Origin: Bacteroidales bacterium
Lineage (GTDB): Bacteria; Bacteroidota; Bacteroidia; Bacteroidales; F082
Length of the DNA stretch: 8,058 nucleotides
Reading direction: 5' to 3'
NCBI GenBank assembly: GCA_016281295.1
Contig: JAEEII010000121.1
Span: 1-8,058, forward strand
Made by a program: the position numbers and the translations under genes. Numbering within the stretch: the first letter of the stretch is position 1; every line of letters begins with the position of its first letter. This document shows, piece after piece, positions 3,232 through 8,058 of this stretch. The notes under the pieces are model-generated. The model saw only the letters and a list, made by a program, of their open reading frames with translations, made no database searches and was not told the DNA's origin.

Positions 3232-3894
3232 TTAGTGGTTTTCCTTGGGATAATAGAACACCTTCGTCTGGTTCGAGTTATTCATGTAAATCAGTCCGCG
3301 ACCTGGCATGAGCGTGGTCAGGGTGCCGTTCCACTGGCCATTCACGAAGGTGCTGTTGCCGCTCTGGCTCTTGATCATGTCGCCTTCTTCAGGAACCAAG
3401 CCTGCCAGAGCATCCACCAGCGGCATCGGGTTCTCCAGCAGGTAGCTGATCCAGTTCCAGCCTGGGGTGAGCTCGATAGGCACCCCAGTTGGGGGAATGA
3501 CGGTGGTAAAACTCATGATATAGGGGTTCCCGAGACTGCCATAGCCTTCCTCCGTGAGAACTGCCTCAGCCACTTCAAGGCCTTCCAGTTCCAGCTCCTG
3601 ACCATGGTCATAGAGCTTGAAGGTAATCACATCACCCGTGTTGCCATACACAGGAAGCTGATAAAGATAGCGGTCGGTGGGCGGGAAATACGCCGCGAAG
3701 GCGCTGCCACGGCATTCGTCAGCGCAAAAGGCGCCAATCTCCAAGGTGGTGGAGGCCTGTTCCTCGCCATCCAGCTGGACGACGACGATCATGGCCATAT
3801 AATCCTCGTAAGGATCCGTGTTGGGAGTCCAATGGTTCTGGGCAAATGCCGTCCCGCACAGCAGGACGAGCAATGATAACATTAGTTTTTTCAT
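3232..3894 (-). CDS. Small secreted protein with one CRG module and one GWNW module
   Basis: A 220-residue exported protein. The signal peptide MKKLMLSLLVLLCGTAFAQ has an AFA-Q signal peptidase I site near residue 19. Residues about 20-130 form a beta-rich module (HWTPNTDPYEDYMAMIVVVQ, then IGAFCADECRG, FPPTDRYLYQLPVYGN, FKLYDH), with two cysteines in CADEC that could pair. Residues about 140-217 form a second module starting TPGWNWISY, with MIKSQSGNSTF and PGRGLIYMN. Both modules recur inside the large protein encoded just upstream (residues about 658-766, and about 1010-1180), so this is a mini-paralogue of its neighbour. It has no T9SS sorting domain, so it would stop in the periplasm or rely on a partner. 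The 15-nt gap to the upstream stop implies co-transcription. The molecular role is unknown; a matrix or surface-accessory protein is plausible. Confidence 0.85.
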   Translation of the reverse strand: MKKLMLSLLVLLCGTAFAQNHWTPNTDPYEDYMAMIVVVQLDGEEQASTTLEIGAFCADECRGSAFAAYFPPTDRYLYQLPVYGNTGDVITFKLYDHGQELELEGLEVAEAVLTEEGYGSLGNPYIMSFTTVIPPTGVPIELTPGWNWISYLLENPMPLVDALAGLVPEEGDMIKSQSGNSTFVNGQWNGTLTTLMPGRGLIYMNNSNQTKVFYYPKENH

Positions 3895-3909: not shown

Positions 3910-6900
3910 TTATTTGACAATGAGTTTTTCCACCGATAAAGTCTGTTGATCTTTAAGGATTCTTACCGTATAGACCCCCGGCACGAGGTCGCAATCCCAG
4001 GCGGTGTTCACACCGGCAAGTTTCACGGTTTTGAGGGTCACGCCAAGCTGGTTGACAACCTCCATCACCACGCCTTCCTGGACATTCTCCACAAAGACGC
4101 GTTCGCCTCTGCCCACCGGGTTCGGGAACAGCAGCGGACGTGTTGCCGCCAATGCCGTTGACTTGAACCTCACGGGGTAGCGTTCGTGTTGGTTGCCCAG
4201 CACGGCATCCGCTTCGAAGGCAACGCCTTCCTCCGCCTCGTAGGTCAGACCCGTTTCCTCGTCATACAGGCGGAAGGTCACCGCGTCGTTGGCCTCGCCC
4301 AACACGGTGAGGAAGGCCACATCACCATGCAGTGGTTCCACATACATCAGCTTCACGCTGCCGCGGCACATACCACCGACGAAGGCGGCTAATTCATAAC
4401 GCTCACCACTCAGCTCCATGCCGTCGAGCGACACGGTGGCCATGACGCTCATGTTGTCGCGGCAGCCAAGGCCGTGATTCTCGAAATGCGTCTTGTTGGC
4501 AGCTCTCGTTGTATGTCCTGCATCCTTTGACGGAGCCGGGTACACCAGCGACTGGTTGGCGCTGCCTTTCGAGTTGTACTTGTAGCCTTGTCCGGGCTCG
4601 AGGGTCTCCAGCAGGCCATACCATCCCCAGTTGGGGAAGTAGCTCGAGAAGCCCGTGTGTGACTTCACCATGTCGTCCTCGTTGGGTGACAGTGAGGACA
4701 TGGCTTGTTCGAGGCTCATCTCCGTGTCGCAGGGATAGCCGATCCAGTTCCAGCCCGGTTTGATGGTGGCGGGATGCTGGCTGGCTTGCGCTTGCTGGCC
4801 TTGCATGCTCACCTCGCAGGCTTGGCTGGTCTTGATTTCGTACATCTGGCTGTTGTCGATGGCGGTGAGGCCGCCCCACCAGTAGGAGCCGTCGTAGTTC
4901 TCCACCATGAGGCCGGAGCGCGACTTGATGAGGAGACCGTTGCTGCCGAGTGACGCCTCCAGTTGTTCGAGGCCGTTGATGCCGTCTTGTTCGATATAGG
5001 TGGAATACCAGTTCCAGCCATTGCCCAGAGCGGTAGTCTGTACACGGTCGAAGACAGCGGTCAGGTGTCTGGCACCCTCAACGATGAAGGTGTATGCTTC
5101 ATCGGTAGAGACCACTGTGCCTAAATCAATTTCGTCAATCAAAATTGCCCATTGTTCAGTACAGTTAAAGTGGCGAATGGCAACATAACCCGTCTGTCCT
5201 GCGAAAGCACTCAGGTCAACAATGTATTGATACCAATTACCCTGTCTGTTATTCTTCTCACGAGGTACCCGGTATGGTTCAGCATCCTTCGCTGTCATCG
5301 TCCATTCTTTGAGCATGGTGAAATCAGCAGGATTGGTGTTTCCTGAGGTAGAGACAGCAACGCCAAAGTGATCTGCAGCCCATGACGAGCTATGAGCAGA
5401 AGCCCAGAAAGAAATTTGACCACCAAGTTCAATCTGCGGAGAGACAAGATAGTTGTCAGGAGTCAAAGCACCAGAAGAATAGCTTTGTGAAAGCACACCT
5501 TCGCTGGAATTGTGTCCACCATCGCCGGGGTACACCTCACTAATCATCATCCAGTTATAACCATCACCATCGGCATCAATCGTGGTCCAGCCTTGCAAGC
5601 CTGTTTCAAAGTCGAACAGATTTTTCCAGCTATTAAAGGCATAGCCTTCATTTGCTGTGGCGGTGAGGGTAGCGGTGGTTCCCGGGAAATACAATCCGGC
5701 TCCACTTACGGTTCCCGCGTTCAAAGGATAGACTGACGTGGCGATGGTTACAGGAGAGATGAAGTTGATCACCTGCGGATTGGCAAGGGAGCCATAGCCA
5801 CTATCATTGATGGTAAGTTGTGTTTCTGACGACAAGTCAAGTTCTTGCTGTTGCGCATGGTCATAGAGCTTGAAGGTGATGATATCGCCGTTGTTGCCGA
5901 ATACTGGCAGTTGGTAGAGATAGCGTTGTGTCGGCGGGAAGTAGGCAGCCATGGTAGTGCCCCGGCACTCGTCGCCGCAGAAGGCACCCAGCTCAAGGGC
6001 CGTAGAGTTCTGTTCCACGCCGTCGATTTGCACCACGCCAATCACGGCCATGAAGTCCTCGTAGGCAGAGCTCTCAGGAGACCAATGGAGAGGACTGAAG
6101 TTCGCCACAAGCCTTCTGTTCCTTGTCACTTCGAAGAGATAAGTAGGATTCGTGGAGACCACCTCGCCGTTTTCTGTCCAGTTGACGAAGGCATAGCCCG
6201 CCGAGGCCGTCGCCGTGAGCGTGCATTCGGCGCCCGCCTGATAGGCGCCGGCACCGCTCACCGCGCCGCCCTCCGCGGGGCTGGGGCTGGCGTTGATGCC
6301 AAAGGAATAATTCTCCACGGCGCGCACAAGACGCACTGACTGCCCATAATAACGGTAGTCGAAGTTGCTCGCACCGAGGCCTCCATCGCCGAAGTCCACG
6401 TAGTACGCGTTGCTGTAATCGCTGCACGAGGCCGACCAGTAGTAGCCATCGCTGCCCACATTGTAAACCGAAGTCCCATCGCGGTCACCAGCGGCGGGAA
6501 GGAAGACAGCCCCGTGTTGCTCCAGGGTTGCCCACTGGTCAGCGGTGATGGTGTTGTTAGAGAAATAAGCGCTAGAAGAGTTAGTGCTGTTCAGCGAATA
6601 ATATGAAGTCTGCCAGTCGTCAGGAAGCAGGATCACGCCGTTGACACCGTTCACCTTGGCCTTGGCGTAGCGTCTGCCCGAGCTGGTGGAGCGGGTGTTG
6701 AACAGGTAATCCCACTCCTCTCTCGTCAGCGTGTGCCAGCCGCTGTTCTCCTCATTGCCACCATTGCTGATGGCGTTGTAGCCCCAGTCGGCCTGGCCGG
6801 TCTGGTCAAACAGGTTGTAGCCGGAGTTGCCGTATGCGTAATAGGAACTATAAGAAGTACTAGTTGACCATGGCTGGTAGCAGGTGGCACCGTGGTTGTA

Positions 6901-8058
6901 TCCGCTCGTGCCCCAGCCGAAGAGGTCGGTCAAACCGTTGTAGTCTGAGGAAATGTTTTTGTTGTCAGCGCCCACATAGTCCCACTGGTTCTCGGCGAAA
7001 CGCCAGGTGTTTGATGAGGCTTTGTACTGAAGGTTGCCCTGGGAGAAGCACACCATAGCGTTCTCACCCACCGTGAACTGCCCGTGCAGGTTGCCCGTCG
7101 AGACGTTCGGGGCGAAGACGGCCACAAGGTCCCTGTTGCCTCCCACGGTGAACGTATAGGAAGCATCTGCCGACACCACCCTGCCGTTCTGCGTCCAGTA
7201 GGCGAAGGTGTAACCCGCCGAGGCCGTCGCCGTGAGCGTGCATTCGGCGCCCTCTGCGTAGGCGCCGGCACCGCTCACCGCGCCGCCCTCCGACGGGCTG
7301 GGGGTGGCGTGGATGGAATAATTCTCCACAAGGCATACCAAGCGTACAGAATGCCCAAAGCCGTGGTGGCTGATGTTGCTCGCATTGAGGTCTCCGTCGC
7401 CGAAGTACACGTCGTACGCGTAGTCGCTATCGTTGAACGAGGCCGACCAGTAGTAGCCGATGGAACCGACACTGTAGACCGAAGTCCCGCCCCGGTAGCC
7501 CGCGGCGGGAAGGAAGACCGCGCCGTGCTGCTCCAAAGTAACCCATTGGGCGACGGTGATGGTGTTGCTGGTGTAATTGCCACCGTTCGTGTTGTTCAAC
7601 GAATAATAAGAGGTCTGCCAGTCGTCAGGAAGCAGAATCACACCATTAATATTGTTTACATTGGCCTTAGCGTAACGGATGCCCGAGCTAGTGGAACGGG
7701 TGTTGAACAGGTAACCCCACTCCTCTTTCGTCAGCGTACGCCAGCCGCTGTTCTCACTGTTGCCTCCGTTGATGATGGCGTTGTAGCCCCAGTCGGCCTG
7801 GCCGGTCTGGTCAAACAGGTTGTAGCCGGAGTTGCCGTATGCGTAATAGTCGCTGAAGTTGGTGCTAGTACTCCATGGCTGGTAGCAAGTGGCACCGTGG
7901 TTGTAGCCGCTGGTACCCCAGCCGAAGAAGTCAATCCAGCCAGCATAGGTTTGGGAAATGTTGCTGTTGTCACTGCCCACATAATCCCACTGGTTCTCCG
8001 CAAACCTCCAGGTTTGGGTGGAAGCTTGGTACTGCAGATTACCTTGGGAGAAGAACAC
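3910..8058 (-). CDS. Large mosaic T9SS-sorted surface protein with tandem lectin-like domains (N-terminus off window)
   Basis: 1382 visible codons; the frame is open at the right edge, so signal peptide and true start are missing. Order by visible residue: 1-245 FISUMP/DUF1566-type, C-type-lectin-like domain (VFFSQGNLQYQAS, GYYWSAS, GHSVRLV); 246-318 InlB-like B-repeat (GYTFAYW...LVAVF); 336-582 second FISUMP-type domain; 583-655 second B-repeat; 658-766 CRG module (FCGDECRG); 772-815 start of a third B-repeat, split by a cleaved-adhesin/choice-of-anchor-type module at about 816-979 (LFDFETGLQGWTTIDADGDG, SPQIELGG, ILIDEIDLG), then its end (VVSTDEAYTFIVEG); 1010-1085 and 1103-1180 two GWNW modules; 1190-1295 second CRG-like module (GGMCRGS); 1305-1382 T9SS type A sorting domain (LFPNPVGRGERVFVENV ... 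GVYTVRI ... VEKLIVK). Predicted to be exported across the outer membrane and anchored or released at the surface, acting as an adhesin or ligand-binding protein. The ligand is unknown. No catalytic site is recognised. Confidence 0.88.
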   Translation of the reverse strand: MFFSQGNLQYQASTQTWRFAENQWDYVGSDNSNISQTYAGWIDFFGWGTSGYNHGATCYQPWSTSTNFSDYYAYGNSGYNLFDQTGQADWGYNAIINGGNSENSGWRTLTKEEWGYLFNTRSTSSGIRYAKANVNNINGVILLPDDWQTSYYSLNNTNGGNYTSNTITVAQWVTLEQHGAVFLPAAGYRGGTSVYSVGSIGYYWSASFNDSDYAYDVYFGDGDLNASNISHHGFGHSVRLVCLVENYSIHATPSPSEGGAVSGAGAYAEGAECTLTATASAGYTFAYWTQNGRVVSADASYTFTVGGNRDLVAVFAPNVSTGNLHGQFTVGENAMVCFSQGNLQYKASSNTWRFAENQWDYVGADNKNISSDYNGLTDLFGWGTSGYNHGATCYQPWSTSTSYSSYYAYGNSGYNLFDQTGQADWGYNAISNGGNEENSGWHTLTREEWDYLFNTRSTSSGRRYAKAKVNGVNGVILLPDDWQTSYYSLNSTNSSSAYFSNNTITADQWATLEQHGAVFLPAAGDRDGTSVYNVGSDGYYWSASCSDYSNAYYVDFGDGGLGASNFDYRYYGQSVRLVRAVENYSFGINASPSPAEGGAVSGAGAYQAGAECTLTATASAGYAFVNWTENGEVVSTNPTYLFEVTRNRRLVANFSPLHWSPESSAYEDFMAVIGVVQIDGVEQNSTALELGAFCGDECRGTTMAAYFPPTQRYLYQLPVFGNNGDIITFKLYDHAQQQELDLSSETQLTINDSGYGSLANPQVINFISPVTIATSVYPLNAGTVSGAGLYFPGTTATLTATANEGYAFNSWKNLFDFETGLQGWTTIDADGDGYNWMMISEVYPGDGGHNSSEGVLSQSYSSGALTPDNYLVSPQIELGGQISFWASAHSSSWAADHFGVAVSTSGNTNPADFTMLKEWTMTAKDAEPYRVPREKNNRQGNWYQYIVDLSAFAGQTGYVAIRHFNCTEQWAILIDEIDLGTVVSTDEAYTFIVEGARHLTAVFDRVQTTALGNGWNWYSTYIEQDGINGLEQLEASLGSNGLLIKSRSGLMVENYDGSYWWGGLTAIDNSQMYEIKTSQACEVSMQGQQAQASQHPATIKPGWNWIGYPCDTEMSLEQAMSSLSPNEDDMVKSHTGFSSYFPNWGWYGLLETLEPGQGYKYNSKGSANQSLVYPAPSKDAGHTTRAANKTHFENHGLGCRDNMSVMATVSLDGMELSGERYELAAFVGGMCRGSVKLMYVEPLHGDVAFLTVLGEANDAVTFRLYDEETGLTYEAEEGVAFEADAVLGNQHERYPVRFKSTALAATRPLLFPNPVGRGERVFVENVQEGVVMEVVNQLGVTLKTVKLAGVNTAWDCDLVPGVYTVRILKDQQTLSVEKLIVK
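6310..7056 (-). repeat. Tandem unit 2: FISUMP-type lectin-like domain
   Basis: This coding block repeats the block at 7321-8058 with a period of 1005-1017 bp (335-339 codons), varying through small in-frame indels. A 77-bp stretch (6768-6844) is identical to 7773-7849 and encodes YAYGNSGYNLFDQTGQADWG and following residues. The downstream B-repeats (6090-6309 and 7100-7320) also share long DNA matches. Such identity favours unequal recombination or gene conversion. Confidence 0.85.
7321..8058 (-). repeat. Tandem unit 1: FISUMP-type lectin-like domain, continuing past the edge
   Basis: Residues 1-246 of the visible protein. It begins at VFFSQGNLQYQAS, which matches residues 336-348 of unit 2 (VCFSQGNLQYKAS), so the window edge cuts inside the repeat's first strand and further copies may lie beyond it. 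It ends with GYYWSAS and GHSVRLV, the conserved closing motif of this fold. Confidence 0.85.

Follow-up and report, generated by a model that had tools for sequence, protein, structure and literature searches.

The locus and its large protein

The 8,058-nucleotide stretch of Bacteroidales DNA analysed here (the window) contains an open reading frame of 1382 residues on its minus strand (3910..8058), the 5′ end of which is cut by the window edge, encoding two lectin-like domains, Flg_new_2 (InlB-type) repeats, a cleaved-adhesin domain and a T9SS sorting domain. The first lectin-like domain (copy A, 7316..8058, its start also cut by the window edge) includes the direct-repeat families D1, D3 and D5, and the second (copy B, 6310..7110) is present at full length and was modelled by AlphaFold2 with a pLDDT of 93; the two are 77% identical. 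Each contains a 51-codon variable region (VR) of the type found in diversity-generating retroelements (DGRs), VR A at 7348..7500 and VR B at 6337..6489, located 1141 and 804 residues upstream of the stop codon, respectively, within longer stretches (7324..7509 in copy A, 6313..6498 in copy B) that can be aligned to a 186-base template repeat from G100, a genome of the bacterial family to which 43 of the window's 44 matched relatives belong. An Flg_new_2 match (divergent InlB B-repeat, residues 253–318, 7105..7302, the best of three such stretches) lies shortly after VR A, and further domain matches identify a cleaved-adhesin/choice-of-anchor J domain at residues 821–978 (5125..5598) and a T9SS type A sorting domain (TIGR04183) at residues 1310–1382 (3913..4131), all of these on the minus strand. 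The sorting domain implies that the protein would be exported by the type IX system. Both VRs are internal rather than C-terminal, a point that the original prediction did not mention, with InlB-type repeats, the cleaved-adhesin domain and the T9SS tail following downstream. As the original prediction had it, the window contains neither a reverse transcriptase nor a template: none was found among the six open reading frames scanned with Pfam, direct-repeat family D3, to which the VR stretch belongs, has only the two VR copies as members within the 8,058 nucleotides, and no Avd gene was found in the window.

Elsewhere in the window there are two copies of a module in which a DUF5618 gene (PF18498) precedes a convergent gene (391–786 and 1860–2279 on the plus strand, 1116–1670 and 2402–2992 on the minus strand), and repeats D2, D7, D8 and D10, common to both copies, indicate a duplication. 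The gene at 2402–2992 matches CdiA_C weakly, scoring 24.0 bits against a cut-off of 26.6, and it is a guess that these modules represent toxin–antitoxin-like pairs. A 252-base repeat (D4, 72%, 3584–3835 and 5837–6088) links a small protein (3232–3894) to the middle of the large one.

Structure ranking of the predicted copy B fold placed Legionella Lcl first, Mtd sixth and TaqVP thirteenth, with modest Z scores, and a Foldseek search against the PDB returned nothing at E ≤ 0.001. The VR domain of the window probably shares its fold class with DUF1566/Lcl_C or Fib_succ_major (FISUMP) targets, and DUF1566 and Fib_succ_major appear in a published list of DGR target domains (PMC4159848). Such targets, known from DGRs of gut bacteria and phages, have the same VR layout as the window, but in them the VR ends the protein, whereas here two tandem VRs precede the stop by hundreds of residues (804 and 1141). 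Template/VR pairs of similar reading were found in five IMG/VR contigs, and copy B itself had no match at E ≤ 1e-5 in phage and plasmid collections. According to Roux et al. 2021 (PMC8144416), a modular layout with a C-terminal VR is near-universal, and this position is tied to homing signals that are then free to sit between genes, where they probably escape coding constraint; the internal tandem placement in the window departs from ordinary DGR targets. VRs lying within one target reading frame are counted in 31 of 271 multiple-VR DGRs (PMC6642488). A reading frame of Marichromatium purpuratum with three tandem FGE-sulfatase paralogues resembles the window in carrying several VRs, and was called highly unusual and possibly an artefact or pseudogene (PMC3521204); unlike that case, tandem internal cassettes are found here in several MAGs, and the protein bears a T9SS tail. 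No paper joining diversity-generating retroelements and T9SS was found in the library searched, and the phrase ‘internal variable region’ occurred in no paper among the matches listed.

Codon patterns and the templates of relatives

VR A and VR B align over 51 codons without gaps, as originally described, and the reported count of about 20 replaced codons, 19 of them pyrimidine-ended in both copies, proved accurate (20 found, 19/20, the exception being CAT/CAG). The accompanying statement that changes are confined to positions 1 and 2 did not hold, since differences number 13, 14 and 12 at the three codon positions, with five of the 20 replaced codons differing at position 3 as well and eight other codons differing silently. 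The suspicion that the signal may be old is borne out by third positions that have drifted like those of the flanks (12/51 versus 53/178, p = 0.48). Because they vary as often as in the flank, there is no sign of recent co-conversion in the window, and the DGR fingerprint there, as read from the sequence, is present but not fresh.

The bias toward pyrimidine-ended (NNY) codons had been advanced as an argument for a DGR, but most of it follows from the amino acids present, since Tyr, Asp, Asn, His, Phe and Cys need such codons. Synonymous choice was compared after picking variable columns by entropy across 79 domain copies, drawn from the window and from 80 relative loci. Serine was encoded as AGY in 192/339 cases in VR-variable columns and in 368/614 in upstream variable columns (p = 0.34), the other degenerate residues were NNY in 478/755 versus 808/1363 cases (p = 0.07), and the window alone tended in the opposite direction (VR 9/14, upstream 25/28, p = 0.09). 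On entropy-defined columns the NNY signature fails as DGR evidence, synonymous choice not differing from that in the upstream variable columns, and the pyrimidine argument by itself would not carry the DGR claim.

Another way of defining the columns is offered by template repeats in G100 and G142, which come from other species and were derived independently of the window, having been located by translating the neighbourhoods of DGR reverse transcriptases. The G100 template, with the in-frame reading GYCNGTSVNNVGGNGNYWSASYNNSNNAWNVNFNDGNLNTDNANNRYNGQSVRLV, is gaplessly colinear with copies A and B, and 21 bases separate its end from the open frame of a DGR-type reverse transcriptase. It differs from its own VR, found on another contig, at 26 sites, 25 of which are template adenines, and the similarity drops at both repeat ends. 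This VR forms the end of a 693-residue target whose last domain (G100:C43:1769-2563) is homologous to the window domain, with 59% identity to copy B over residues 1–265. Since the homology extends over the full domain, the family in which DGR targets are supported by sequence takes in the domain as a whole and not the VR alone. Template and target lie on separate contigs, so this DGR acts at a distance. G100 differs from the window in having one strongly matched VR, which is C-terminal, and a broken reverse transcriptase frame, whereas the window VRs are internal. The reverse transcriptase gene beside this template (L192:8881-10055, G100:C6) is split into two frames near its 3′ end, by sequencing error or decay.

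Scored against the G100 template, VR A differs at 23/47 adenine sites and 22/106 other sites (Fisher p = 9e-4), and VR B at 23/47 and 21/106 (Fisher p = 4e-4); when only codon positions 1 and 2 are considered, the proportion is 22/46 at adenine sites against 9/56 (copy A) and 8/56 (copy B) at others. Adenines thereby account for 23/45 and 23/44 of the mismatches (51–52%) to this template from another species, compared with the 75% usually seen in own-template pairs (PMC8144416). The template has 18 AAY columns (codon offsets 3, 8, 9, 13, 15, 22, 23, 25, 26, 29, 31, 33, 36, 38, 41, 43, 44 and 47 from the first glycine of the 51 codons), and in these columns both VRs read NNY in 18/18 codons, including 10/10 degenerate residues, so that the pooled 36/36 stands against 73/98 in the window's own upstream variable columns (p = 2.6e-4). 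A full 18/18 was reached by nine of 40 gapless copies (39 of the 79 regex copies, with a VR of fixed length, and one hand-added), the two window copies being among the nine. Comparison of VR A with VR B in the same columns showed 17/36 replacements at positions 1 and 2, versus 47/356 in 178 upstream codons (p = 4e-6), and differences at 2/18 third positions, versus 53/178 in the flank, a deficit that taken alone gives p = 0.11.

The G142 template has the same length, is likewise colinear with the window VRs, and differs from its own VR at 24/54 adenine sites and 4/99 others (24/28 mismatches at A). Against it, VR A differs at 29/54 adenine sites versus 28/99 others and VR B at 31/54 versus 32/99 (p = 0.003 for each), and its 19 AAY columns are NNY in 19/19 codons of either window VR (38/38). 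AAY codons of both templates coincide with the variable codons of the window. A third colinear template, on the viral contig L133, gave only p = 0.07 and 0.29 for an adenine excess in the window. Of the original case for a DGR, the cassettes stand, being colinear with the G100 and G142 templates, and the codon argument is weaker as first given, failing with entropy-chosen columns, which do not differ from upstream, and holding with template-defined ones.

Relatives, reverse transcriptases and fresher copies

The window protein has at least 3494 homologues at E ≤ 0.001 (7997 candidates scored). The 120 examined yielded 193 copies of the motif region, of which 157 are separated from the end of the protein by 60 residues or more, and 62 homologues contain two or more domain copies; the 76 copies that share one length can be divided into columns that do not vary and columns that are hypervariable. 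Of 277 loci in a scan of genome contigs, 80 were retained; they come from 44 MAGs, often with a ruminant host in the title, and 43 of the 44 matched relatives belong to one bacterial family (173 genomes), at least 8 genomes of which match the 3′ part of the gene at 68–75% identity, too distant for any of these to be the window's species. Under a stricter motif, with copies carrying VR indels left out, 20 of 26 copies end 3–5 residues before the stop in the manner of ordinary DGR targets, the window's two being among the remaining six. Tandem copies about 1.0–1.1 kb apart recur in other MAGs (L001, L225, L230). Three near-identical strain pairs differ by 0–2 VR residues, and those of their copies that were scored (L043, L045) fall outside the fresh class. 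In an orthologous set (L028, L037, L048, L055, L059, L067) the VR is largely conserved across genomes, from which it follows that frozen cassettes exist. With L041 added, these loci make up a set with the same domain and a largely conserved VR, in which Gln and Glu occupy columns that are variable elsewhere.

DGR reverse transcriptases have been assigned the motif (I/V/L)GxxxSQ (PMC3521204). A profile built from four DGR-type enzymes matched 33 of the 173 family genomes at E ≤ 1e-25 and five of 43 relatives (G009, G020, G033, G034, G044), and a sixth, G030, was recognised by PF00078 and has an own template pair with 16/16 mismatches at adenine; a DGR-type enzyme was thus recognised in just 6/43 relatives covered by both searches. 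None was found in the assemblies of G001, G002 and G010, all with fresh-looking VRs, for which MAG gaps may be the cause. The PF00078 search of 44 relatives detected reverse transcriptases in 20, and in 19 of the 30 loci examined the motifs are of a kind we take to be retron-like, group-II-like or similar to RT_UG26. Two enzymes, L089 and L085, on which alone the PADLOC UG26 test was run, fall in the PADLOC RT_UG26 class (537 and 523 bits), and a similar motif occurs in eight other reverse transcriptase loci.

In several of the profile-matched genomes the mismatches between template and VR fall wholly or almost wholly on template adenines: 22/22 in G096, 24/24 in G061, 21/21 in G009, and 20/21 and 22/23 in G034. 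The G096 locus consists of the target, a short gene, a presumably Avd-like gene (so named from resemblance), the template and the reverse transcriptase. All own-template VRs inspected (G100, G142, G096, G034) are at protein ends. In G034 a single template serves two C-terminal DGR VRs with a similar lectin-type domain (L120, 3247–5352 and 10686–12248), in proteins that we assume, again from resemblance, to be Ser/Thr-kinase-like. A short gene of 162–210 residues with a motif like GTFYRAYEWSAWLC adjoins the DGR target in three genomes (L142:3636-4121, L120:5469-6035, L199:953-1582), even where the template is on another contig (G100), and possibly encodes an unnamed DGR accessory protein.

Searches for further templates gave mixed returns. 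Self-comparison of loci L001–L081 yielded no template/VR pair, the matches being short (36–69 bases) and weakly biased. A first template pattern matched 7/44 genomes and located two templates, in G034 and G028, and no DGR-type reverse transcriptase motif was found within the 12.6 kb surrounding the template-like reading of G028. A second pattern matched 3/173 genomes, missing G100 because it required Ser/Thr/Cys/Trp-type codons at one column. The G100 template itself had matches in 9/12 genomes of relatives at E ≤ 0.001 (counting G100 and some templates), in at least 17/38 genomes at E ≤ 1e-8, where the matches inspected were VR-like and none template-like, and, at the level of the order, in at least 4/393 genomes at E ≤ 1e-15. 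N-rich template-like stretches of a neighbouring type occur in other genomes of the order (L255, L256 and L257, in G548, G512 and G535).

A fresher counterpart of the window is found in MAG Tb.RUG.288 (G001), in a tandem, lipoprotein-like protein of two domains (L001:8687-10795); one of its VRs lies 368 residues ahead of the stop codon, the other at the C-terminus. In the AAY columns its VRs differ at 18/36 first and second positions and at 1/18 third positions, and over the whole VR third positions differ at 3/51 sites versus 43/175 in the flank (p = 0.003). Adding the genome's two other C-terminal VRs makes six pairs, in each of which AAY third positions differ at 0 or 1/18; the whole-VR third-position deficit has p < 0.05 in four of the six. 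A comparison across two genomes, L003 with L038, gave 29/36 differences at first and second positions in the AAY columns and 0/18 at third positions, the flank differing at 68/179 third positions. Pooling of the three within-protein tandem pairs (window, L001, L225) gave 5/54 AAY third positions versus 132/533 in the flanks (p = 0.01). Third bases that are homogenised next to first and second bases that are scrambled form the pattern left by copying one adenine-rich template again and again; selection alone would let third bases drift. By the same measures the window copies look older than those of Tb.RUG.288.

Interpretation and rival explanations

We consider it probable, at roughly 70%, that the two stretches are DGR VR cassettes in tandem C-type-lectin-like domains of a T9SS-exported, adhesin-like Bacteroidales protein, and past diversification of these VRs by a DGR is likely. 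Judged by sequence, three things are established: the cassette type, the presence of the fingerprint in the window and, in relatives, the occurrence of such templates beside DGR-type reverse transcriptase genes. From these we infer that the genome harbours, or once harboured, a DGR. Acting in trans, this would comprise a reverse transcriptase, Avd and a template repeat like that of G100, which reads GxxNGTSVNNVGxNGNYWSASYNN. The template would be copied with random bases at its adenines and the copy written into the VRs, presumably also at the internal sites seen here, altering positions 1 and 2 of some 18 AAY codons and leaving position 3 and the scaffold codons untouched. The lectin-like domains may then bind varying surface ligands.

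A different history would have the VRs diversified as C-terminal targets elsewhere and then duplicated and recombined into a long protein, where they are now subject to drift and gene conversion with no internal retrohoming. The recognition of DGR-type reverse transcriptases in as few as six of 43 relatives, the frozen orthologous VRs, the flank-like drift of third positions in the window VRs and the C-terminal location of all own-template VRs inspected (G100, G142, G096, G034) are in line with such a course of events, which nonetheless appears rather unlikely, since plain duplication and drift would not give the homogenised third and scrambled first and second bases of the L001 pair in G001, and the AAY columns of the window itself combine 17/36 replacements at positions 1 and 2 with only 2/18 at position 3. 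The same third-base homogenisation, in G001 and between L003 and L038, weighs against diversifying selection on ligand-contact residues coupled to recombination between paralogues, with the NNY appearance produced by favoured Tyr, Asp, Asn, Ser, Gly, His and Phe. This explanation draws on the entropy-column result, in which synonymous choice does not differ from that upstream and runs in the opposite direction in the window alone, and on the amino acid set, which by itself forces a pyrimidine at most of these codons; moreover, selection would tolerate change in the very columns where the template is adenine-rich, and the adenine excess therefore does not count as separate from this explanation. 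It is made improbable by two templates from the same family, with adenines at just these columns, that adjoin DGR-type reverse transcriptase genes, one of which has a full-length homologous domain as its target, and by the NNY codons at all 36 template-defined positions, with degenerate residues NNY in 10/10. That collapsed or chimeric paralogues created a false pattern during assembly is hardly credible: repeats of about 1 kb are indeed error-prone in metagenome assembly, but the 1.0–1.1 kb tandem spacing recurs in L001, L225 and L230, two or more copies are present in 62/120 homologues examined, and both window copies lie in one open frame.

Returning to the reading of the two stretches as DGR cassettes, a tentative extension, which we hold to be possible but doubtful, is that one gut Bacteroidales lineage has long secreted adhesins with arrays of such cassettes built into them, several to a protein and far from the stop codon, and that a single template common to all of them does the rewriting in trans. 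If so, homing signals would lie inside coding sequence, breaking the rule that targets end with the VR, and the products would be multivalent proteins of the cell surface, each binding site changing independently of the others. With templates and columns now known, variation can be scored at the level of single reads. Cassettes placed internally and in tandem in T9SS-tailed proteins would show that DGR targets can overcome the limit of a C-terminal VR, and might account for how a large family of homologues became hypervariable.
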